Assembly: GCA_006226265.1 (NCBI GenBank)
Contig: SBHH01000111.1
Span: 1-15,693 of the forward strand
Length of the DNA stretch: 15,693 bases
Origin: Alphaproteobacteria bacterium
Lineage (GTDB): Bacteria > Pseudomonadota > Alphaproteobacteria > Sneathiellales > Sneathiellaceae
Reading direction: 5' to 3'
How positions within the stretch are numbered: position 1 is the first letter of the stretch; each line of letters opens with the position of its first letter. The notes under the pieces were generated by a model, which did no database searches, had not been told where the DNA came from, and was given only the letters and a program-made list of their open reading frames with translations. Of this stretch, positions 1 through 15,693 are shown piece after piece. The translations under genes were made by a program, and so were the position numbers.

Positions 1-143
1 TTGTTCGACATATTCTGCGGCTTGAACGGGCGCACAATAAGGCCCCGGTTGCTGTAGGCACGGGCCAGCCCGGCGACAAGCAGCGACTTGCCGACATCGG
101 ACCCCGTTCCCTGCAGCATCAGGGTGGCGGCGCGCCCAGTCAT
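1..143 (-). CDS. cobQ: Cobyric acid synthase CobQ, N-terminal fragment
   Basis: CobQ is the glutamine-dependent cytoplasmic enzyme that amidates four carboxyl side chains of adenosylcobyrinic acid a,c-diamide to give cobyric acid. Only the first 47 or so codons lie in the window; the gene runs off the left edge. Translation from the ATG at 143-141 gives the P-loop-like motif [16 protein letters not shown] near residues 10-25, then [11 protein letters not shown], both hallmarks of the CobQ/BioD-type ATP-binding domain. The start overlaps the cobO stop by one base (TGATG). There is no strong ribosome binding site of its own, so translation is probably coupled to cobO. It is the distal visible gene of the riboswitch-controlled B12 operon. 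The short visible part leaves little doubt about the family. Confidence 0.93.
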
Positions 144-775
144 CAGAATTCTATTCCGACCTGCGCCTTGACGCCGGAGCGGAAGGGATGCTTGATCTGG
201 GTCATTTCGGTGACGAGATCGGCAATCTCGATCAGTTCCTCTTTCGCGTTCCGGCCCGTCACCACCACATGCAGCTTTTCAGGCTTGTTTTTGAGGAACT
301 CCACCACCTCTTCAAGCGGCAGGCTGTTATAGCGGAGCACGATGTTAAGCTCATCGAGGATGATCATGTCATAGGCGGGATCATCGCCCCGGCAGGCGTC
401 GATCATTGTCTTCGATTTTTCCCAGGCATTCTCGGCGGCGCGAATGTCGCGCTCGCGATCCTGCGTCTCCCAGGTGAAGCCTTCGCCCATCGTGTTGATC
501 TCGATCTGGTCGGGGAAGGCTTCCAGCACCTTTCGCTCCCCCGTCTCCCATTTGCCTTTCACATATTGCACGACGCCGACTTTCATGTCGTTGCCGATGG
601 CGCGAGCAGCGAGGCCGAAGGCCGCCGTGGACTTCCCCTTACCCTTGCCGGTATGGATGATGAGAAGGCCCTTCTCGATCGTTTTGGTGGCGAGCATTTT
701 ATCGCGTGCGGCTTTCTTCTTTGCGGCCTTGGCGTTGGCGCGGGCAATTTCCTCTGGCGTCAGGTTCTGGCTCAT
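143..775 (-). CDS. cobO: Corrinoid (cob(I)yrinic acid a,c-diamide) adenosyltransferase
   Basis: This 210-residue protein is a CobA/CobO-family ATP:corrinoid adenosyltransferase, which transfers the 5'-deoxyadenosyl group from ATP to the cobalt of cob(I)yrinic acid a,c-diamide. The basic N-terminal helix (residues 1-30) is followed by the P-loop [10 protein letters not shown] (41-50), the [14 protein letters not shown] segment near 97-110, the Walker-B-like DMIILDELN near 136-144, and the family-typical C-terminus [15 protein letters not shown]. Length is normal. The ATG overlaps the cobN stop as ATGA, and a good Shine-Dalgarno (GGGAGGGAG) lies just upstream inside the cobN end. The stop overlaps cobQ. 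It acts in the cytoplasm between cobalt insertion by CobNST and amidation by CobQ. The start is well supported. Confidence 0.96.
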
Positions 776-3700
776 AGGGCTCCCTCCCGTTTTAATTGAT
801 TGAGATCGTTGTGAATGGTGTTGCGGCGGGGCTGCCAGAGGCCGCGGGCAAGCGCCTCCTCGAACCGTTCCGCCATCTCGCGAAGTGCGTCGGGGTTATT
901 CTTTTCCAGAAACTCCCGCACTTTTTCATCGCCAAGATAGGCATCGAACAGCGCCTCGAAATGATGATCCCTTACCGCATGGGCGGTCGCGGCGAAAGCG
1001 AAAAGATAATCGACTGTTGCCGCCATTTCGAACGCGCCTTTATAGCCATGGCGCATCACGCCCTCGATCCATTTGGGATTGGCGGCGCGGGCACGGACGA
1101 CGCGGCCGACTTCTTCCTCCAGCGTGCGGATTTTGGGGCTTTCGGGCCGGGAATGATCGTTATGGAAGACCTGCGGCTGCGCGCCTTTCAAATGCCGGAC
1201 CGCCGCCGTCACGCCGCCTTCGAACTGGTAGTAATCGTCGCTATCCAGCAAGTCATGCTCCCGGTTGTCCTGATTATGAACAACGGCTTCGATCTTGGAG
1301 AGGCGCTTCTCGAACAGGCCATGGGCGGCCGTGCCTTCCGATCCGCCGCCATAGGCATAGCCACCCCAGGCGACATAGGCGCGGGCAAGATCGCCGGTAT
1401 CGGACCAGCCTTTTTCATCGATGAGGGCCTGAAGCCCCGCGCCGTAAGCGCCGGGTTTCGATCCGAACAGGCGGAAACTGGCTTGCTTTTTGGCGGCCTC
1501 CTCACTTGCCCCGGCGGCGATCAGCTCGGCCTTGTCCGTCTTGATCCGGGCGGCGAGGGGGTTGGTTTTCGCATCCTCCGGAAGCTCGCCGACGGCGCGG
1601 ACGGCACTATCAAAGAGGGCCATCTGCTGCGGGAAGGCATCGCGAAAAAAGCCGGAGACACGGAGCGTCACATCGACGCGCGGCCGATCGAGGAGGGAGG
1701 CGGGAATAATCTCGAACCCCGTCACGCGGGTCGAGGCCTTGTCCCATGTCGGCCGTACCCCCATGAGGGCGAGGGCCTGCGCAATATCATCGCCACCCGT
1801 CCGCATATTGGCGGTACCCCAGGCGCTTAAAATCATTGTCTTTGGCCAGGCGCCGTTTTCCTGGCGATAACGGTCGATCAGCAGCCCCGCCGATTTCCAG
1901 CCCAACAGCCAGGCGGTCGGCGTCGGTACAGCGCGGCTGTCGACGGAATAGAAATTGCGTCCTGTCGGCAGGACATCCTCCCGCCCGCGGGTCGGCGCGC
2001 CGGACGGGCCGGGATCAACGAACCGGCCATCGAGGCCTTTGAGGAGCCCCTCGATTTCCGCGCTCCCGCAAGTCTCGACATTCGGGCGGAGGACATCGTT
2101 CAAATGATCGAGCACGGCGTTCGTTGCCCTCCAGTCCTGGGCTGGGGCTTTCACGCCCGCCACCAGATCGGCGGCGAGCAGTTCCAGCCTTTCCACCGTA
2201 TCGCCGTTCGACCGCCATGTGCCGTCATATTGAAGCGCCTCGGGCCGGGTGCCTTGCCATTCCGCGCCCATCTCGCAATCGAGCGGGTCAAATTCTTCCA
2301 GAAGGTGAAGGTCGCTTGCAAGGCTTCGGATAAGGGAGGCGCTCGCCCCCTTGCCATCGCCCCGCGGGATGCGGAGAAGGGCGACGAGCAGGTCGGTCAA
2401 TTGCCGCCCGGTGGGCGCTCGCCCAAAGATATGTAGCCCGTCGCGGATCTGCAGCTCCTTCAACTCACAGAGATAATTGTCGAGCTTGGCAAGCCGGCTG
2501 TCTTCCGGATCATCGGGGTCAATGCCGCAATCCGTATCGATCCCGGTTGATTGCGTGAGTTCCAGAATTTGCCGGCGCAACAGCGCAATCCGGCGTGGAT
2601 CGACCCCAGCGGCATCGTAATATTCATCGACCAGCCGTTCGAGGTCGGCAAGCGGGCCATAGCTCTCGGCGCGGGTCATGGGCGGCGTCAGGTGATCGAT
2701 GATGACGGCGCTCGCCCGGCGCTTGGCTTGCGTTCCTTCGCCCGGATCATTGACGATGAAGGGATAGAGATGAACCATCGGGCCGAGCATGGTCTCGGGA
2801 TAGCATTCATCGGACAGCGCGACCGACTTGCCGGGCAGCCATTCCAGATTACCATGCTTGCCCATATGGATAACGGCCTGTACTTCTTCCGTCTCGCGCA
2901 GCCAGGCATAAAAGGCGAGATAGCCATGCGGTGGTACCAGATCGGGATCGTGATAGCTGGCGGCGGGATCGATATTATAGCCGCGCGCGGGCTGGATGCC
3001 GGTCAGGATATTGCCATAGCGGCGAATAGCGAGATGAAAATGATCGCCCGCGACGAAGGGATCGCTTTCGGGATCGCCCCAGCGCGCCATTATCTCGGAC
3101 TGCAACTTCTCAGGCAGCTTTGCGAAGAAGGCGCGATAGCTTGCAATCGAATAGGGGACACCCTGCCGTGTCGTGGCGCGCGTCCGGTCATTGGTCGGCC
3201 CCGCCAGCAAGTCGTCAATCAAGGCATTGCCATCCGCCGGAAAGGTGCCGGTCTCATATCCCGCCGCCTGAAGTGCCTTTAAAACCTCGATCGCGCCCGC
3301 AGGGGTATCAAGGCCGACGCCGTTGCCGATGCGGCCGTTTTTATTGGGATAGTTCGCTAAGATCAGCGCGACTTTCCGGTCTTCTGCTTTCGTATTACGA
3401 AGCTTCGCCCAGGCGGCGGCAAGATCGGCGGTAAAGTCGATCCGGTCCGGCACGGGCTTATAGGCAACGATGCGCGTTTCCGTAAGGTCATCGAAGCCCG
3501 CATCGGACTTGAAGGAGACGGCGCGCGCGAGGATACGCCCGTCCACTTCCGGCAAGGCGACATTCATCGCGATATCGCGCGCGGAAAGACCACTTACCCC
3601 GTTCCGCCAGTTCTCCTCGTTGCTCCCTGAAAAAATCACCTGCAGGACGGGGCAGTCCGCTGCATCGAAGGGTGTTTCCTTCCGCACCGCCCCGGGGTTG

Positions 3701-4509
3701 GAGACGGCAAATCCCGTCGCGTTCAACAGGACCGAGGGCTTCGTTTCACCAAGGCAATGACGGACGATATCGGCGGAGACAGGGTCTTTCAGGCTTGCGA
3801 CAAAGAGCGGCAGGGGATTGAGCCCGCGTTTCTGGAGGGCTGTGATCAGCGCATCGACGGGCGCAAGATTATCCGCCTGATAAAGCGCGCGGTAGAAGAC
3901 GATACCAACGACGGGCGCCTCGGCCTGCCAGAATTTTCTCAAATCCTCAAGTGCGGGAAGGCCCATTTCGGGCCAGTAAATTCCGGCTTTGAGAAGCGGT
4001 TTCGGCTCTCGCCAGCCGCTTTTCTCATCAAGAAGATAGGCCGCGTAATCAAGGAAGCCCGCGTAATTCTCCGCTCCGCCTTCGACCATATAACGCCAGA
4101 GCCGGTGCGCGGCCTCGCGCGGCAGGGTATTGAGGGCGGAAAGCTCCTCATCCGGCTGGTCGTCGCCCGGCAGGATGGCAAGCTTGATCCCCTTCGCGCG
4201 GCAGCATTCGGTGATTTTCTCAACCCCGTAAGGCCAATAGCTGATCCCGCCCAGGAGCCGCAAAATGACCAGCTTTGCGTTCGCGATCATTTCCTCGACA
4301 TAGATATCGACGGAAAGGTTATGGGCAAGCTGCATGGAATTGGCGAGCCGGAGGGTAGGGGCGTCAACGCGCGTGCTTTGCGCCTTCGAAAGACTCGCAA
4401 GCTCGCTGTCGGCGGCGGACAGGTAGAGGATCTCGCCCGGCGTCTGGGCAAGATCAACCGCTTCCGATCCGTCCGAGACGCTTCCCGGTATGGCTGCCAG
4501 AAGATGCAT
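772..4509 (-). CDS. cobN: Cobaltochelatase subunit CobN
   Basis: CobN is the large substrate-binding subunit of the aerobic ATP-dependent cobaltochelatase (CobNST), which inserts Co(II) into hydrogenobyrinic acid a,c-diamide. The 1245 residues match the usual size. The N-terminus (MHLLAAIPGSVSDGSEAVDL, then ILYLSAADSELASL) is typical of CobN. The BchH/ChlH-like core carries the conserved HMGKHGNLEWLPGKS block near residues 547-561, followed by VHLYPFIVNDPGEGTQAKRR. The frame is intact, with no frameshift. The partner subunits CobS and CobT are not in this window. The ATG lies one base after the cobW stop (TGA-C-ATG) and has no evident ribosome binding site, so it is probably translated by reinitiation. 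BchH or the nickel chelatase homologues are less likely, given the neighbours cobW, cobO and cobQ. Confidence 0.97.
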   Translation of the reverse strand: MHLLAAIPGSVSDGSEAVDLAQTPGEILYLSAADSELASLSKAQSTRVDAPTLRLANSMQLAHNLSVDIYVEEMIANAKLVILRLLGGISYWPYGVEKITECCRAKGIKLAILPGDDQPDEELSALNTLPREAAHRLWRYMVEGGAENYAGFLDYAAYLLDEKSGWREPKPLLKAGIYWPEMGLPALEDLRKFWQAEAPVVGIVFYRALYQADNLAPVDALITALQKRGLNPLPLFVASLKDPVSADIVRHCLGETKPSVLLNATGFAVSNPGAVRKETPFDAADCPVLQVIFSGSNEENWRNGVSGLSARDIAMNVALPEVDGRILARAVSFKSDAGFDDLTETRIVAYKPVPDRIDFTADLAAAWAKLRNTKAEDRKVALILANYPNKNGRIGNGVGLDTPAGAIEVLKALQAAGYETGTFPADGNALIDDLLAGPTNDRTRATTRQGVPYSIASYRAFFAKLPEKLQSEIMARWGDPESDPFVAGDHFHLAIRRYGNILTGIQPARGYNIDPAASYHDPDLVPPHGYLAFYAWLRETEEVQAVIHMGKHGNLEWLPGKSVALSDECYPETMLGPMVHLYPFIVNDPGEGTQAKRRASAVIIDHLTPPMTRAESYGPLADLERLVDEYYDAAGVDPRRIALLRRQILELTQSTGIDTDCGIDPDDPEDSRLAKLDNYLCELKELQIRDGLHIFGRAPTGRQLTDLLVALLRIPRGDGKGASASLIRSLASDLHLLEEFDPLDCEMGAEWQGTRPEALQYDGTWRSNGDTVERLELLAADLVAGVKAPAQDWRATNAVLDHLNDVLRPNVETCGSAEIEGLLKGLDGRFVDPGPSGAPTRGREDVLPTGRNFYSVDSRAVPTPTAWLLGWKSAGLLIDRYRQENGAWPKTMILSAWGTANMRTGGDDIAQALALMGVRPTWDKASTRVTGFEIIPASLLDRPRVDVTLRVSGFFRDAFPQQMALFDSAVRAVGELPEDAKTNPLAARIKTDKAELIAAGASEEAAKKQASFRLFGSKPGAYGAGLQALIDEKGWSDTGDLARAYVAWGGYAYGGGSEGTAAHGLFEKRLSKIEAVVHNQDNREHDLLDSDDYYQFEGGVTAAVRHLKGAQPQVFHNDHSRPESPKIRTLEEEVGRVVRARAANPKWIEGVMRHGYKGAFEMAATVDYLFAFAATAHAVRDHHFEALFDAYLGDEKVREFLEKNNPDALREMAERFEEALARGLWQPRRNTIHNDLNQLKREGAL

Positions 4510-4510
4510 G

Positions 4511-5539
4511 TCAGGCCGTGATCACGCGGGCGATGGCCTCACGGTCCATGCCATGCTCACCGATGATGACAAGCTTGCTGATACGGGGTTCGCCCGCGTC
4601 CCATTCCCGGTCGAAATAATGCTGAAGCCGGTTACCGACTCCCTGCAGGATTAATCGCATCTCCTTGCCTTCGACGGTAAGGAAGCCTTTCACGCGGAGG
4701 ATCTTGTGATCCGCAATTGCCGCTTCCAGCCGTTCGATCAGATGGGCAGGCGAGGGGATGGCTCCGACATCGAGAACGAAGCTGTCGAAATCGTCATGCT
4801 CGTGATCGTCCGCGTCGTCATGGACGGAGGGACGGGCGGCAAGGTCATCCTCCGCCGCCGCGCCGAGGCCCAGAAGCACCCGCGCATCGATATCCGCATG
4901 GCTGGTGCTGAGCAGCTTAACCGCAGGGCGGACACGCGCCTTCAAAGTGGCCGTTGCCTTGGCCAGTGCCTCGGCATCCAGCATGTCGGACTTGTTGATC
5001 AGGATCATGTCGGCGCAATTTACCTGATCGTCGAACAGCTCTTCCAGCGGGCTGTCATGATCCAGCATCTCGTCCGCCTCCCGCTGTGCCTGTACGGCTT
5101 CCGGATTGGCGGCGAAAAGCCCATCGCGGAACGCAGGTCCGTCGATCACGGTCACGACGCCGTCGACGGTGACGCGGGTTCTGACTTCCGGCCAGCCGAA
5201 AGCGCGGACCAGCGGTTTTGGAAGCGCAAGGCCCGAGGTTTCGACGATGATATGATCGGGCTTGTCTTCCCGGTCGAGCAGTTTCTGGATGGTCGGCAGG
5301 AAGTCATCGGCGACGGTGCAGCAGATGCAGCCGTTCGCGAGCTCGACAATATCTTCCTCCGTGCAGTTTTCGTTGCCGCAACCTTTTAGGAGCTCGCCAT
5401 CGACGCCGAGATCGCCGAACTCGTTGATGATGAGGGCGAGCTTGCGTCCCTCCGACTTCTCGATGAGATTGCGGATCAGGCTGGTCTTGCCGGCACCGAG
5501 GAAGCCGGTGATGACGGTCGCGGGGATTTTCTGGGTCAT
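4511..5539 (-). CDS. cobW: CobW, COG0523 GTPase (cobalt metallochaperone for B12 synthesis)
   Basis: CobW is a G3E-family GTPase (SIMIBI class), thought to deliver cobalt for corrin synthesis. The 342-residue protein has Walker A GFLGAGKTS (12-20), the metal-binding CxCC motif as GCICC (C71, C73, C74), ETSGLA near 100-105, and the guanine-specificity motif NKSD (182-185). A His/Asp-rich linker HDDADDHEHDD (240-250) precedes the C-terminal CobW_C domain (about 253-342). The ATG overlaps the stop of an upstream 43-codon ORF as ATGA, and nothing resembling a Shine-Dalgarno stands directly before it. Translation therefore probably depends on that ORF. It is the first large gene behind the B12 riboswitch and immediately precedes cobN. 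COG0523 paralogues for zinc exist, but the context points to cobalt. Confidence 0.96.
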   Translation of the reverse strand: MTQKIPATVITGFLGAGKTSLIRNLIEKSEGRKLALIINEFGDLGVDGELLKGCGNENCTEEDIVELANGCICCTVADDFLPTIQKLLDREDKPDHIIVETSGLALPKPLVRAFGWPEVRTRVTVDGVVTVIDGPAFRDGLFAANPEAVQAQREADEMLDHDSPLEELFDDQVNCADMILINKSDMLDAEALAKATATLKARVRPAVKLLSTSHADIDARVLLGLGAAAEDDLAARPSVHDDADDHEHDDFDSFVLDVGAIPSPAHLIERLEAAIADHKILRVKGFLTVEGKEMRLILQGVGNRLQHYFDREWDAGEPRISKLVIIGEHGMDREAIARVITA

Positions 5540-5667
5540 GGATGAAGTCCGGTTGTAAGGGGATCGTTATGTCCGCTGTGCGGCGCGGACACGCAAAGAC
5601 AGGCCGCAGGAAAGCCGCCTTTGTCAGGGTTCGGGAAAGTATCGCGCAAATTCAAAACGCTCATCAT
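5536..5667 (-). CDS. Small 43-residue ORF coupled to cobW, function unknown
   Basis: I do not recognise this protein. The ORF begins with two ATGs in tandem (5667 and 5664) behind a strong GGAGG (5675-5671). It runs 43 codons and stops in a TGA that overlaps the cobW ATG (ATGA at 5539-5536). cobW itself has no visible ribosome binding site, so this ORF probably supplies ribosomes to it. The second ATG has the better spacing (6 bases). The peptide starts MMSVLNLRDTFPNPDKGGFP and then contains CLCVSAPHSGHND, with two cysteines and three histidines (H30, H33, H42) that could bind a metal. No signal peptide or membrane segment is evident. It could be a functional small protein or only a leader peptide that passes riboswitch control on to cobW. 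The arrangement is seen directly; the role is inferred. Confidence 0.55.
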   Translation of the reverse strand: MMSVLNLRDTFPNPDKGGFPAACLCVSAPHSGHNDPLTTGLHP

Positions 5668-5681
5668 GATCCTCCGTCATG
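5665..5681 (-). promoter_or_regulatory. Hairpin presenting the small-ORF ribosome binding site
   Basis: On the minus strand the sequence reads CATGA-CGGAGGA-TCATG: 5-bp perfect arms around a 7-base loop. The GGAGG lies in the loop and the first ATG in the 3' arm. It sits 24 bases past the riboswitch B12 box, where a translational expression platform would be expected. There is no run of Us, so an intrinsic terminator is unlikely. The pairing is seen; regulatory use is inferred. Confidence 0.35.
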
Positions 5682-5704
5682 CAGCAGAAGTGTCAATGGA
5701 TGAT

Positions 5705-5838
5705 GGCAGGTCTCCTGGCTTGCGAATGACACCGGCACAGACCTTCCCGAGCAAGTCAGTGGTGTGTTGTACCGGCTAATCGCTTACAGTTGCGGGGACA
5801 GCCGCGGCTTTGATCGATAAATCTCACCGCATTCCCTT
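5705..5838 (-). promoter_or_regulatory. Cobalamin (AdoCbl) riboswitch
   Basis: The minus strand has the cobalamin riboswitch elements in order: GGGAATGCGGTGAGA at the 5' end, CCGCGGCTGTCCCCGCAACTG in the middle region (the first part of it quoted, 5808 to about 5788), CCACTGACTTGCTCGGGAAGG, and the terminal B12 box AAGCCAGGAGACCTGCC ending at 5705. The aptamer binds adenosylcobalamin and lowers expression of the downstream genes when B12 is plentiful. It lies 38 bases before the small ORF and 166 bases before cobW, so it should control the small ORF and cobW-cobN-cobO-cobQ. No terminator hairpin with a U-run follows, which suggests control of translation start. The 5' and 3' limits are approximate. 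No convincing promoter was identified in the roughly 80 bases between it and the cobC stop. Confidence 0.95.
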
Positions 5839-5917
5839 ATAATCCCGAAATGGGAACCATCGGATGGGACGCTACGGCGGAATGGCGATGCTGTCAATCC
5901 GTAAGCACCGCCGGGCG

Positions 5918-6952
5918 CTATTTTGCGAAGGCGTGAAGCGCAACCTTCAACCGGCGCCAATCTTTCTCTTCGCCCGGCAGGCCGAAGCGGAGATGGCGGG
6001 GCCGCCCTTCGAAAGCGCGGACAAGCAGGCCCGCCCTGCAAAGATGATCGAAAAGCCGTGGCGCGTCCGGCGTTTCGACAAGGCGGAAAAGATCGGTGCC
6101 ACCCCGAAGCTCAAGTCCGGTATTTTCAAGCATCCGATCGACCCGTTTCGCGGACAGCGCAAGCGATTTTCTCATTTCATCGATCCAGATGGAATCGGTG
6201 AGTGCTTTCGTCCCGATTTCAAGTGCGGGTCCGCTTACTGCCCAGGGGCCGATTTCCTCGCGCATCTGCTCGACAAGTATCAAAGGCCCCGCCATGAAAC
6301 CGAGCCGGAGTCCGGCAAGGCCGAAGAACTTGCCGAGTGATTTCAGGATGACGAGTCCGTCACCCCCAGCAAGCGGGGCGAGGGAGACATCGGGCGCGGT
6401 ATCGGCAAAAGCTTCGTCGACGACCAGCAGGCCGCCCCGCCGCCGCATTTCCTCCTGAAGCGCGTGAAGTTCCAGTTTGGCGTAGAGCCGTCCATCCGGA
6501 TTGTTGGGATGGACGAGAACCACGACGCGGGCGTTTTTCAGTTCCGACAGGGTCGAGATTTCCCGCACCCTGTGGCCTGCCCGGGCCCAGCAGATGCCGT
6601 GCTCTGAATAGGTGGGGGAGAGGATCGCAACTTCGCAAGGGGCAATCAAATGGGGCAGGCGCTGGATCGCGGCCTGCGTACCGGGAAGGGGGCAGAGGGA
6701 GGCATCCTCGGAAAAGCCATAATAGCGCCGTGCGGTGTCGAGGAGCTTTCGTGTGGCCGTTTTTCCGGGTAGCCGCTGCCAGCTTTGGGGCGAAATTTCG
6801 GGCAAGGGATAGGCGTTCGGATTTATTCCCGTGCTGAGATCGAGCCATCCTGCTTTCGGCGTTCCGTAAATGACGGCCGCCCAGTCGAGATTACCGCCGT
6901 GAGCGGGCAGGAAGGATGATTTTTCTGGCCCATCGGCAGGAAGGATTTGCAT
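5918..6952 (-). CDS. cobC: Threonine-phosphate decarboxylase CobC (PLP-dependent)
   Basis: This class I/II aminotransferase-fold enzyme decarboxylates L-threonine O-3-phosphate to (R)-1-amino-2-propanol O-2-phosphate, the linker for the nucleotide loop of B12. The family signature HGGNL lies at residues 18-22, HPNNPDG at 149-154, DEAF at 179-182, and the PLP-lysine motif SLGKFFGLAGLRLGF at 205-219 (K208), with LRFGLPG near the C-terminus. I place the start at the ATG at 6952, which has GAGG 6 bases upstream. This gives 344 residues. An in-frame ATG 33 bases earlier (6985) has no ribosome binding site. A histidinol-phosphate aminotransferase is the closest alternative, but HGGNL and the B12 context favour CobC. 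The usual companion cobD/cbiB (cobinamide synthase) is absent here. It lies upstream of the riboswitch and so is not under it. Confidence 0.93.
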   Translation of the reverse strand: MQILPADGPEKSSFLPAHGGNLDWAAVIYGTPKAGWLDLSTGINPNAYPLPEISPQSWQRLPGKTATRKLLDTARRYYGFSEDASLCPLPGTQAAIQRLPHLIAPCEVAILSPTYSEHGICWARAGHRVREISTLSELKNARVVVLVHPNNPDGRLYAKLELHALQEEMRRRGGLLVVDEAFADTAPDVSLAPLAGGDGLVILKSLGKFFGLAGLRLGFMAGPLILVEQMREEIGPWAVSGPALEIGTKALTDSIWIDEMRKSLALSAKRVDRMLENTGLELRGGTDLFRLVETPDAPRLFDHLCRAGLLVRAFEGRPRHLRFGLPGEEKDWRRLKVALHAFAK

Positions 6953-7033
6953 GACGCCTCGTGAAAAAGGAAACTGCCCTCTCATAGCAGAATGCAGCTT
7001 GTTTTCGCAAATTTATCCTGTAGGGTTAGGCGC

Positions 7034-11973: not shown

Positions 11974-11991
11974 ATGAAAGTATTCGTATGA
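11974..11991 (+). CDS. Five-codon leader ORF before the protease gene
   Basis: ATG AAA GTA TTC GTA TGA (MKVFV) follows AGAGGG at good spacing. Its TGA overlaps the protease ATG (ATGA at 11988-11991). The protease ATG itself has only a weak GAAAG upstream. This suggests translational coupling through a mini-ORF. An equally simple reading is that the ribosome binding site serves the protease with poor spacing. Confidence 0.3.
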   Translation: MKVFV

Positions 11992-12866
11992 TTGAGACGA
12001 AGCGAAAGCCGCAAGGTGGAAGGGCGGAGTGGTTGCTGCTTCTGATAGCGCTGTTCGTTTCGGCCCTGCCACTCCGGGCATGGTCTGCGGAGCAGAAGCA
12101 GGCTATGGGCAAGCTTCCGCATGTCGCGGGCATCAAGGGAGCGGACGATCGTCTGACTCTCGACGTTACTCGTTATCCTTGGACTCGGGTGGGCCGTCTC
12201 AATCATAATGGCAATTTTTGCACCGGAATCCTTGTCGCGCCCTCGCTGATCGTTACGGCGGCACACTGTTTTTGGGATGTCCGACGGCGGAAATGGGCGC
12301 CGCCCAGCGTCTTCCATTTCCTTCTCGGCTATAACAAGGGGGCCTATCAGGCTCATAGCCGACTTAAAAGCTATATCCTCTCAAGTGGAACAAAGCCGGC
12401 TCCTGGCGATGTCCGGCCCCCTGCCGAAAGAGACTGGGCGATTGCAGTCCTGACGGCGCCGCTTGGTGAGAAAGCTGGCTTTCTGCCGCTCGTATCCTAT
12501 CACGATGTTGATTTCCGGACGCATCGTTACCGACCCGACGGAGTTCGCGTCTCTTTCGCACAAGGTGGATACAGCCGCGACATTTCCCATGTCCTGACCG
12601 GGGACCGGGCCTGCGATATCAAGGGCATCATGCGCTCCAGGGACGGCAAGGGGCGGCTTCTGGTCCATATGTGCGATGCGACACGGGGCGATTCCGGCTC
12701 CCCCATTCTCTTGCGCGAGGGCAATAGCTATCGCCTGCTTGCCATCCATGTGGCGACGCTTCATCAGCCAGGCGGGGAGGAGTATGGCCTTGCCGTGCCT
12801 GCCGATGCTTTCCGGACCCGTCTTCGCGAACTTGAGGCCCGGATGGGCGGATCAAACGGCAAATAG
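11988..12866 (+). CDS. Secreted trypsin-like serine protease (S1 family)
   Basis: A 292-residue precursor carries a Sec-type signal peptide: basic n-region to residue 13, hydrophobic WLLLLIALFVSALPL, and a likely cut after RAWSA (about residue 34). The mature part is a chymotrypsin-fold domain with the complete catalytic triad: His93 in VTAAHC, Asp149 in RDWAIAVL, and Ser236 in RGDSGSPI. C78 with C94 and C209 with C229 are plausible disulfides, the first being the one that flanks the catalytic His in S1 proteases. It resembles bacterial V8/S1B-like endopeptidases; the substrate is unknown. There is no C-terminal membrane anchor or PDZ domain, so it is not DegP-like. It is probably periplasmic or exported. 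The ATG is coupled to a possible 5-codon leader. The antiporter gene is divergent, 172 bases away, with no confident promoter in the gap. Confidence 0.92.
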   Translation: MIETKRKPQGGRAEWLLLLIALFVSALPLRAWSAEQKQAMGKLPHVAGIKGADDRLTLDVTRYPWTRVGRLNHNGNFCTGILVAPSLIVTAAHCFWDVRRRKWAPPSVFHFLLGYNKGAYQAHSRLKSYILSSGTKPAPGDVRPPAERDWAIAVLTAPLGEKAGFLPLVSYHDVDFRTHRYRPDGVRVSFAQGGYSRDISHVLTGDRACDIKGIMRSRDGKGRLLVHMCDATRGDSGSPILLREGNSYRLLAIHVATLHQPGGEEYGLAVPADAFRTRLRELEARMGGSNGK

Positions 12867-13047: not shown

Positions 13048-13377
13048 ATGAGTGCGGAAAACAAACCGGCCGATGCGCCGATCGAGCAGGATACAACCAG
13101 GGCCATTTCCGAAACGCCGCTTTCGGAAACGGATACCCTTTCCTTCCTTGATGCCGGTCAGGACGGTGCAGTTGATCTCGATGCGCTGTTCGACGCCCTC
13201 AATATTGCTGCCAGCCACGATGGCGGGGCAATGGATTATGTCGCCCATGAAGACGGCGGCGGGACGCTGATCATTTCAGGCACGGAGCTTGCGGTCGATC
13301 CCGGCATTGGCGGAGAGGACCTTGCGCTTCAGGCCGAGCATCTGCTGAAAGCGGCTATCGTTTCGGACGAATCCTGA
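13048..13377 (+). CDS. Hypothetical acidic protein, 109 residues
   Basis: I do not recognise this protein with confidence. The ATG at 13048 follows AAGGTG at good spacing. It is extremely acidic, with about 23 Asp/Glu against three Lys/Arg. The N-terminal 35 residues look disordered (polar, Thr/Glu/Pro rich). The rest reads DGAVDLDALFDALNIA, then MDYVAHEDGGGTLIISG, then DLALQAEHLLKAAIV. The run of DL..L..L, a beta segment with GTLIISG, and a final leucine-rich strand loosely recalls the C-terminal target domains of type I secreted proteins, but no RTX nonapeptides are present. It has no signal peptide or membrane segment. A candidate promoter and palindrome lie upstream, leaving a leader of about 140 bases. 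It is convergent with the HD-GYP gene, 45 bases away, where no clear terminator is seen. Confidence 0.7.
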   Translation: MSAENKPADAPIEQDTTRAISETPLSETDTLSFLDAGQDGAVDLDALFDALNIAASHDGGAMDYVAHEDGGGTLIISGTELAVDPGIGGEDLALQAEHLLKAAIVSDES

Positions 13378-13422: not shown

Positions 13423-15501
13423 CTAATTCTTCGGAGCGTCATTCGCAGGCGCCGTCAGTATTTCGCGGAACTCCTGACCGATATCGCTTGCGAAAAAGGT
13501 ATCGAGCGCCGCCACTACTTCCTGATCGTATTTTTCCGGATTGCTGCGGAACACATTAAGGGCTTCCTCAATCGTGATCGCCTCACGGTAGGATCGGGGC
13601 GAGATGCGCGCGATCAGCACATCCACCATGCCAAGAATGCGTCCGGGCATGCCGATCTCGGCGGCTTCAAGCCCGTTCGGATAACCGCTGCCATCCAGTC
13701 TTTCGTTGATCTGGGTCACGGCGGCGACGACCTCGGGGGACATTTCCGCCTCCTCCAGCAGTTTGGCCGCGACCAGCACATGTTTCTGCATGACTGCCTG
13801 CTCGTCTTCTGTCAGGCGGCTTTCCTTGACGCGAATTTCACGCGGAATGGAGATTTTACCGACCTGCGAAAGATGCGCCCCCGCAGTGAGCACGCGGTGT
13901 ATCTCTTCGGGCAGGGCAAGCTCCGTCGCGACATGATCGGCCAGCTTGCTGAGTCGGTCCGAATGGCCTGCAAGATAGGGGTCATTCGCTTCCAGCATTC
14001 GCACAAGAACATTGATGGACTTCTTCGCCATTTCTTCCTTGTGGCGCTGATGTTCGACGAATTCGGTGATGTCGCTGCTGACCGTAACGATGCCGACGAA
14101 GCTCCCTTCCTCGTTCAGGAAGCGCGACTTGGCGATGCGCAAGGTGCGAGGGCCGTCCAGGCTGTCTATCTCGACAAAGGCATTGACCGTCTGTTCCGTC
14201 GCGATGGCCTTGCGGTCGAACTCGGCGAGCTGCCGTGCGACTTCCTCACCGAACAGGTCGCGATCCGTCTTGCCGGGGATCGCCCGCACCGGAAAATTGG
14301 CCATCCGTGCGAGCGAAGGATTAGCATAGATATAGACGCCTTCTGGATCGGTAAGCCCGATCAGTTCGTCAATCGAATTGTTGATACTGCCAAGCAGGCG
14401 GCGCTGTACATTGATCTGGCCCGCAAACTCCATGTACTGTGTGGCAAGAGCGCGGGCGTTCTGCCCTTTAAGGGTCAGCCAGATGGCAGCAAGAACCGTA
14501 AAAATAACGATAATCATGCTGATGGCGAGACCGACGACGAACAGGCTGTAGGTTTCGAGGCCTGCAAGCGCGTCTTCCTCGTCGATCTGCTGAAACAGGA
14601 TAAGATCCGTGCCGGAAACAGGCGCGCCATCAGCATAGCGAACCAGTCCGTCGGGGAAGACGACCCGCTGGAAATCGAGTTTGCCGGTCGAGAGGGTCGG
14701 GTCTTTGCGGGATGAAAGATAAGGCGCGCGAGATGGCGTCAATTCGTATAGCACGCCGCCGCGATCCTGGAAAAGGCGTGAGGTGACCGGTTCGGCCGAA
14801 AATCTGGGCGGTGCAAGAAAGCGGCTGAACGGTTCGCTCGCCGGAACCGAGACCAGCAGAACACCGACCACGTCGGTCGCATCGCCAGAGGTCGCGGACT
14901 GTGCCGCATGGATCGGTACCAGGAAGTCGAGCACCAGCCCCGCGGTGCCCGCCCGGAGGGGCAGGAAAGTGAGAGCAGCCTTGCTGTCGTACTGGGATTT
15001 CGCGGCGATGCGCTGATCGTCGGTAAGAGAGGGGGCATCGCCCGAAGCGAGAAAGGCGCGTCCGGCGCGGCCGATCAGATAGGCCCCGATCAGGTTGTCC
15101 TGCAGCGCGAAATTGGTGATGGCATTCTGCATATAGGGAAGCTGCGCCGCCAAAGGTTCCGGAAGCTTGTCACCGGCAGACTGATTGACCTCGCTTGCAA
15201 ATAACTGGAACAGCTCGTTTCGGGCAATGCGGCCCGCCCGTTGCGCCGTCGCATCGAGCCATGTCTCGACGACATTCGCTTGCCCTGCATCGCTGATGTC
15301 GAGACGGCGTTCCGCTTCGTGCAGCAGGTCCGCCTTCCGCGCACCAATCGCATAGTTTGCAATCAGGTATGCGGCGACGACCAGCAGGAAAAGAAGCACT
15401 CCCACCGTTTTCAGTGGCGTCCGGTTCATCCATCCCTTTTCCGCAGGCGGATCATGCGCAAGGAAGCTGTTAAGATCAAGTTTTGCGGTCATCTCAGTCA
15501 T
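13423..15501 (-). CDS. Membrane receptor with periplasmic sensor, PAS and degenerate HD-GYP domain
   Basis: A 692-residue inner-membrane signalling protein. TM1 is about 31-51, then a periplasmic region of about 265 residues (52-318, Cache-like by position, with no motif to prove it), TM2 about 319-345, a PAS domain about 366-480, and an HD-GYP domain about 490-670. HD-GYP enzymes hydrolyse cyclic di-GMP. Here GHS (H513), MQKH (H574), DGSGYP (603-608) and D627 remain. However, the defining HD is SQ (545-546, in HLSQVGK) and the HH is IN (598-599), so four metal ligands are lost and activity is unlikely. I set the start at 15501: GGGAGGAAAG stands 8 bases before it, whereas an in-frame ATG 30 bases earlier (15531) has no support. 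The start overlaps the stop of a BTLCP peptidase gene by 8 bases, so the two form an operon. Confidence 0.9.
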   Translation of the reverse strand: MTEMTAKLDLNSFLAHDPPAEKGWMNRTPLKTVGVLLFLLVVAAYLIANYAIGARKADLLHEAERRLDISDAGQANVVETWLDATAQRAGRIARNELFQLFASEVNQSAGDKLPEPLAAQLPYMQNAITNFALQDNLIGAYLIGRAGRAFLASGDAPSLTDDQRIAAKSQYDSKAALTFLPLRAGTAGLVLDFLVPIHAAQSATSGDATDVVGVLLVSVPASEPFSRFLAPPRFSAEPVTSRLFQDRGGVLYELTPSRAPYLSSRKDPTLSTGKLDFQRVVFPDGLVRYADGAPVSGTDLILFQQIDEEDALAGLETYSLFVVGLAISMIIVIFTVLAAIWLTLKGQNARALATQYMEFAGQINVQRRLLGSINNSIDELIGLTDPEGVYIYANPSLARMANFPVRAIPGKTDRDLFGEEVARQLAEFDRKAIATEQTVNAFVEIDSLDGPRTLRIAKSRFLNEEGSFVGIVTVSSDITEFVEHQRHKEEMAKKSINVLVRMLEANDPYLAGHSDRLSKLADHVATELALPEEIHRVLTAGAHLSQVGKISIPREIRVKESRLTEDEQAVMQKHVLVAAKLLEEAEMSPEVVAAVTQINERLDGSGYPNGLEAAEIGMPGRILGMVDVLIARISPRSYREAITIEEALNVFRSNPEKYDQEVVAALDTFFASDIGQEFREILTAPANDAPKN

Positions 15502-15693
15502 CGGCCTTTCCTCCCTGCGCGGTTTGCACATTCAGGAAGTCCCGGGGGATATGCGCCCATCGCCATTTTTCATTCACGGAATAGACGGGGACGTAATATT
15601 TCACGAGGTCTTCATCGAGCGCGGTGTTGCTGAGGCTGTCGAGGACATAGCGCCGCCCGCGAAGTGATACGCTTAAAATCGCATGGGGGCGGT
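15494..15693 (-). CDS. BTLCP (LapG-like transglutaminase-fold cysteine peptidase), C-terminal fragment
   Basis: Only the last 65 or so codons are present; the gene enters from the right edge. The reading frame gives PHAILSVSLRGRRYVLDSLS, then VKYYVPVYSVNEKWRWAHI, and ends GGKADD. The His in PHAIL and the Asp in YVLDS, 15 residues apart, match the second and third members of the Cys-His-Asp triad of bacterial transglutaminase-like cysteine peptidases (BTLCP, DUF920). The VLD followed by the Y.W region is also family-typical. The catalytic Cys and the expected signal peptide would lie outside the window. Pseudomonas LapG, which cuts surface adhesins in the periplasm under control of the c-di-GMP receptor LapD, belongs here. 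The stop overlaps the start of the HD-GYP receptor gene by 8 bases (ATGACTGA). The family call rests on a short fragment. Confidence 0.75.
   Translation of the reverse strand, partial: RPHAILSVSLRGRRYVLDSLSNTALDEDLVKYYVPVYSVNEKWRWAHIPRDFLNVQTAQGGKADD

Follow-up and report, generated by a model that had tools for sequence, protein, structure and literature searches.

A DvhG-like protein without its catalytic cysteine is paired with a DvhD-type receptor in Sneathiella

In the Lap and Dvh systems, the release of adhesins by proteases of the BTLCP family serves as a main switch by which cells pass from an attached to a free-living state and back, and the DvhD/DvhG pair of Desulfovibrio vulgaris was reportedly reconstituted earlier, in a PNAS paper of 2024. 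PMC13090378 describes this pair as a BTLCP coupled to a degenerate PAS/HD-GYP receptor. Here we analyzed a stretch of 15,693 nucleotides from the alphaproteobacterial family Sneathiellaceae (GenBank assembly GCA_006226265.1, contig SBHH01000111.1), hereafter the window, whose right end bears the gene for a receptor of this kind (receptor A) overlapped by the end of a BTLCP gene (BTLCP-A); together they are referred to as pair A. The window is an entire contig (C22) of a 2.58 Mb assembly that comprises 370 contigs and is 70% complete, and the contig edge truncates the upstream gene, BTLCP-A. The relatives used for comparison (G001-G023, n = 23) belong to the same genus.

Pair A shares with DvhD/DvhG a dCache-PAS-HD-GYP receptor with two membrane helices and the HD motif changed to SQ, an adjacent BTLCP gene and an operon that includes type I secretion genes. 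Moreover, the A-type BTLCPs, both dead and alive, form one branch with the Desulfovibrio and Desulfuromonas members (support 100/99). Unlike DvhG, the BTLCP of the Sneathiella pair A lacks the catalytic Cys; besides, a second, Cys-bearing pair (BTLCP-B and receptor B) lies across the same secretion genes, and the host belongs to the Alphaproteobacteria, a name absent from the main text of PMC13090378, although the class may still appear in the distribution figure of that paper. The B-type pair of Alphaproteobacteria is built of the same two protein families as pair A, but its BTLCP falls on a separate branch and keeps the Cys, and its receptor has MN or LN as the HD motif. Pair A differs from LapD/LapG of Pseudomonas fluorescens in that receptor A has neither GGDEF, EAL nor HAMP and BTLCP-A has no Cys.

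The original prediction had presented this locus as a possible alternative to LapD/LapG in which a dead HD-GYP receptor takes the place of LapD and controls proteolysis, and as a pairing not known to have been described. The receptor, the pairing and the secretion genes proved correct, but the claim to novelty was rejected, since BTLCP with a degenerate HD-GYP receptor is already published as DvhD/DvhG (PMC13090378), and an active protease in pair A could not be upheld. The new element is the dead BTLCP partner, so far as the open-licence literature goes: we found no dead LapG- or DvhG-type protein among the papers listed there, and the sections and passages of PMC13090378 that were examined do not mention a DvhG without activity of this kind. 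Relatives that have lost catalysis but persist next to active members are familiar from pseudoproteases in general (e.g., iRhoms). A conserved dead protease, maintained by selection beside its own receptor and near a copy with Cys, would provide a layer missing from both the LapD/LapG and the DvhD/DvhG models. It also means that proteins labelled "transglutaminase-like cysteine peptidase", as BTLCP-A of S. marina is in the public record, need not cut anything. Single-domain constructs and a cleavage reporter are available for DvhG (PMC13090378), so that the question of the dead protease is directly testable.

Loss of the catalytic cysteine in BTLCP-A

The window holds the C-terminal 65 codons of BTLCP-A (15494..15693, minus strand), a piece too short to give a Pfam match by itself. 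Translation and comparison with full-length relatives showed that it corresponds to the C-terminal part of DvhG/LapG-like genes and carries the His (15685-15683) and the Asp (15640-15638) of the triad, as had been read from the window before. The remainder lies on another contig of the same assembly (C10:1-517); aligned with the S. marina protein, it spans residues 27-171, and the piece in the window continues from that point. Given the gene order in the relatives, we infer that the two halves, translated separately, belong to one gene. BTLCP-A has a signal-peptide-like N-terminus, judged by reading, but its Cys site reads GGSSVDF instead of GDCEDY or a similar sequence found in the Cys-bearing members. 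The Cys-His-Asp triad of the DvhG/LapG protease is thus incomplete. The sequence of this half of the gene led us to reject the interpretation of pair A as an active protease plus receptor, and an upstream gene without the catalytic Cys is also the outcome that the original prediction had named as refuting it. With the Cys lost, pair A cannot act through proteolysis by its own BTLCP; a second pair in the locus keeps the Cys.

The replacement is not peculiar to the window. The catalytic Cys was replaced in all 18 syntenic loci (17 Sneathiella genomes, including the window's own, and one further member of the family) and in 75 of the 78 database homologues. Named homologues of BTLCP-A come from Sneathiella, among them S. 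marina, S. chungangensis, S. chinensis and S. glossodoripedis. At the same time, BTLCP-A retains the Peptidase_C93 family profile, a predicted BTLCP fold and, in nearly all homologues, His and Asp, while the calcium ligands D and E next to the Cys site are kept in 58 and 59 of the 78 homologues, respectively. The residue found instead of Cys is mostly Ser (67 of the 78), always encoded by TCN with silent changes (22 rows), and this, together with the retained His and Asp, is what one would expect if the exchange had created a working serine protease of altered specificity. We consider this very unlikely. The same 78 homologues have Ala (6), Pro (1) and Thr (1) at this site, the copy of the B37T1B8 genome combines Gly with the loss of both His and Asp, Gln stands for His in G017 (locus L044), the calcium ligands are gone in part of the genus, and DvhG with a changed Cys was inactive (PMC13090378).

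Nor does BTLCP-A look like the decaying remnant of a former Dvh operon, an explanation to which we give hardly any credence. It does evolve faster than BTLCP-B (mean distance over 16 loci 0.586 vs. 0.366), but the ratio of nonsynonymous to synonymous substitution rates (dN/dS) in two close pairs is about 0.05-0.06, the database holds 75 Cys-less homologues, and both receptor A and the overlapping junction are kept in 17/17 loci with the pair. Judged from these substitution patterns, BTLCP-A is maintained by selection.

The stop of BTLCP-A and the start of receptor A overlap by the 8 bases ATGACTGA (15494..15501, minus strand), and precisely the same string recurs in 12 of the 17 related loci; the other five junctions are ATGA (4 loci) or TAATG (1 locus), i.e., overlaps of 1 to 4 bases. 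Such an arrangement suggests translational coupling of BTLCP-A and receptor A. In locus L257 (G373:C47), too, the contig ends within an A-type BTLCP gene just before its receptor.

Receptor A and the second pair

Receptor A (13423..15501, minus strand; 692 amino acids) was assigned to the DvhD type by Pfam and structure comparison, and both agree with the architecture read earlier from the window. A periplasmic dCache domain (about residues 53-317; 14551..15345) is flanked by two membrane helices and followed by a PAS domain (about residues 376-482; 14056..14376) and a degenerate HD-GYP domain (about residues 497-662; 13516..14013), all on the minus strand. An in-frame ATG further upstream, at 15531, would give a protein of 702 amino acids, in whose numbering the Pfam matches are PAS_4 at 386-492 (E 6.8e-17) and HD_5 at 507-672 (E 4.3e-35); the start at 15501 is favoured because the junctions in the relatives fit it. 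The metal-binding motifs of an active HD-GYP phosphodiesterase are gone, with HD replaced by SQ (13864..13869, minus strand) and HH by IN. SQ is common to 18/18 receptor A rows and DvhD, and HH is replaced in 18/18 rows as well. Among 12 positions checked for contacts with cyclic di-GMP (c-di-GMP), the window retains Y523, P567, L577, Y621, R650, Y652 and R653. The metal-stripped HD-GYP domain likely binds c-di-GMP without cutting it.

The top match of receptor A among solved structures is DvhD, and kinship to DvhD was seen in every solved piece. The fold matches to other dCache sensors scored lower than DvhD by about 9 to 10 Z units, and therefore no ligand is proposed for receptor A. Its membership in the LapD family was considered and rejected, as the Pfam matches have no domain in common: neither the LapD/MoxY periplasmic domain nor HAMP, GGDEF or EAL is among them.

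The pairing goes beyond chance: BTLCP-A was found together with receptor A in 17 of the 20 neighbourhoods fetched; the other three, from other families, hold only a B-type pair. In two loci (L034 and L048), a trypsin-like gene and a small gene are followed by co-directional receptor A, BTLCP-A, HlyD and ABC genes, then by TolC, by BTLCP-B divergent from receptor B, and by a response-regulator-like gene. In the window's own genome, the BTLCP-A piece on C10 is followed in sequence by HlyD (TIGR01843), ABC (TIGR03375), TolC (TIGR01844), BTLCP-B (PF06035) and receptor B, so the type I secretion genes expected for a Dvh operon are there. Both receptors, both BTLCPs, ABC, HlyD and TolC were present in all 16 Sneathiella loci searched. 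BTLCP-B has an intact Cys, and a sequence comparison of receptor B with the periplasmic structure of DvhD gave no match at E 1. In a survey of the class, at least 39 of 59 B-like receptor matches had a BTLCP within 2 kb, and at least 35 of these were divergent.

Behind receptor B, in L002 (9540-10625, minus strand) and equivalently in L034 and L048, there is a protein of 340-360 amino acids whose weak match to a receiver domain stays under the Pfam cut-off; this protein could be an output or an input of the receptors.

Cysteine-less copies, adhesin sites and a possible role

To what extent dead copies occur elsewhere was seen from A-type loci of the same class outside the family, where the Cys was kept in 11 of 12 loci, the exception (G202:C9) being the RI_95 genome, and from a scan of genome contigs, of which the best 80 of 408 relatives were kept. 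Since five dead members served as the query, the scan is biased towards dead copies. An open reading frame (ORF) filter called a BTLCP in 66 of the 80 loci; four of the other 14 were read, all with Cys, and 10 stayed unscored. The Cys was absent from 13 of the 66, and all 13 adjoin an A-type receptor: nine are Sneathiella-like (Ser), and the others are Dive96_bin1.131 (Thr), RI_95 (Asp), Geminicoccaceae HKST-UBA14 (Ala) and B37T1B8 (Gly). Outside the genus, dead copies are therefore represented by four more lineages or genomes. In B37T1B8, His and Asp are changed besides the Cys, and the layout is Sneathiella-like, with a divergent Cys-bearing B pair beside the dead A pair and no TolC called. 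A Cys-bearing BTLCP accompanies the dead copy in 22/22 genomes (17 Sneathiella, the own one included, one family member and four others). In six examined genomes with a single PF06035 match, assigned to the A type from the tree or from the receptor, the Cys is kept. As the dead rows are related, the number of independent cases is far below 28.

A putative substrate, encoded by a large ORF divergent from ABC, carries FDPGQVAPAAG in Dive96 and FDPSTVATAAG in B37T1B8, in its N-terminal region; DP...[TAP]AAG is the cleavage site reported for LapG and DvhG (PMC13090378). The Dive96 N-terminus as a query matched 19 of 24 genomes of the genus, the own genome not among them, while the LapA retention profile had matches in 22 of the 24, above the cut-off in none; the own adhesin candidate comes from this sub-cut-off match. 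Among the open-licence papers listed, we found nothing on Sneathiella adhesins. In the adhesin loci examined (L207-L226, L054-L063 and L205), the site reads PAAG in nine genomes (G004, G005, G007, G009, G011, G012, G014, G018 and G023) and P[EQ][AG]G in 12 (G000, G001, G002, G003, G008, G013, G015, G017, G019, G020, G021 and G022), the window's genome being in the latter class; the site search in the Sneathiella loci gave no match in L056, L061, L062 and L218 and no site in G006, G010 and G016. BTLCP-A has GDSED in 9/9 PAAG genomes. Among the 12 others, nine lack the calcium ligands (GGSRD, GRSRD, GGSKD or GSSVD) and three keep them (G002 with GDSEG, G020 and G022 with GDSED). Ligand loss thus occurs only in genomes with a changed adhesin site, and it may represent one or two events. 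In BTLCP-B, the position three residues ahead of the catalytic His is G in 10 loci of the P[EQ][AG]G group and R or Q in seven of the PAAG group. The match between calcium ligands and adhesin site is what a shared substrate would give, but it proves nothing.

From its sequence and predicted fold, the order of the genes and the signs of selection, we propose, tentatively and with slightly less than even confidence, that BTLCP-A, beside its DvhD-type receptor, is a non-cutting competitor that guards the adhesins from BTLCP-B, the predicted live protease. Receptor A would hold or release BTLCP-A depending on c-di-GMP, perhaps also on a periplasmic ligand, and free BTLCP-A would dock on the retention domain of the adhesin or on its cleavage segment, keeping an active BTLCP-B off. 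The adhesin would then be shed only with BTLCP-B free and BTLCP-A held, which would amount to two-input control of detachment and possibly to an extra attach/release switch in marine Sneathiella. A wider generalization, which we regard as possible but would sooner expect to fail, is a class of pseudoproteases gated by c-di-GMP receptors: dead DvhG paralogues that arose more than once would act as natural traps for the substrate, cap adhesin retention domains and veto the live DvhG/LapG paralogue, making release a decision of two receptors.

The chief rival is that BTLCP-A binds the receptors rather than the adhesin and competes with BTLCP-B for docking, so that less of the live protease is sequestered. 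The loss of catalysis with the fold and most active-site neighbours retained agrees with such a decoy. So does the co-variation of the two receptors, as if they shared a partner or dimerised: in a mirror-tree comparison, their partial correlation beyond the secretion genes was 0.80 (120 non-independent pairs from 16 loci). This value, however, fits either explanation. The retention of His and Asp in almost all copies, and often of the calcium site, points to the substrate cleft and not to a receptor-binding face, and in the Desulfovibrio model of PMC13090378 the receptor docks behind the active site, at its back. We therefore rate the decoy as a rather unlikely, though serious, alternative.

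Several observations weigh against the guarding of adhesins by BTLCP-A. The window's own BTLCP-A (GSSVD) lacks the calcium ligands and its own adhesin reads FDPDKINPQGG, i.e., NPQGG for PAAG, which makes a shared substrate less obvious. BTLCP-A co-varies weakly with receptor A (partial r 0.25) and negatively with BTLCP-B (-0.27); the remaining values are 0.19 for BTLCP-A/receptor B, 0.28 for BTLCP-B/receptor A and 0.32 for BTLCP-B/receptor B. If the logic of DvhD holds for receptor A, low c-di-GMP would free both proteins together, and release would be blunted rather than gated unless the set points of the receptors differ. In receptor A itself, five of the 12 c-di-GMP contact positions (K520, R569, K582, M646 and E668) differ from DvhD, and P567, L577, Y621, R650 and Y652 occur in the active phosphodiesterase PmGH too, so that these five indicate an HD-GYP fold more than a receptor. 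In Dive96_bin1.131, the B-type BTLCP that should be live (L203, about 1114-1794, G405:C141) is interrupted in the assembly by an in-frame stop within the N-terminal part, which may reflect either an assembly error or decay. Finally, independent Cys losses are few: the best tree of 72 rows has four changes (bootstrap 2-4, 5-95% range), and its well-supported branches force just one. In this tree L049, L130 and L138 branch from an open fork, and two of these three have long branches; of the three rows meant as outgroup, L172, which has a very long branch, was placed inside the A-type part.

Genes adjoining receptor A

Convergent with receptor A lies a gene for a protein of 109 amino acids (13048..13377, plus strand) that resembles a detached C-terminal signal of type I secretion. 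A protein of 90-110 amino acids with VDLDALFDALNIAA and mostly a C-terminal SDES adjoins receptor A in the window and in all 16 fetched Sneathiella loci, but it was not found in L049-L052. Its profile matches the very end of the C-terminus encoded by an ORF directly upstream of an adhesin (L212, E 2e-5), and it therefore looks like a free-standing secretion signal. This neighbour, present in every one of these loci, and the position of BTLCP-A directly behind HlyD and ABC with its gene overlapping that of receptor A, would suit a further explanation, in which receptor A has BTLCP-A as a permanent subunit in the periplasm and the pair senses or regulates the type I secretion machine, with no role in proteolysis. 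Other Alphaproteobacteria have Cys-bearing A-type proteases in the same place behind ABC and HlyD; the position is thus inherited and gives no argument for a new role, and we find this explanation improbable.

At 11988-12866 (plus strand), the window bears a gene for a trypsin-like serine protease, and a similar-looking gene occupies the same place in L034 and L048. Farther to the left, the stretch 143-6985 presumably represents a cobalamin biosynthesis block, which by reading resembles cobO, cobN, cobW and an aminotransferase-like gene.
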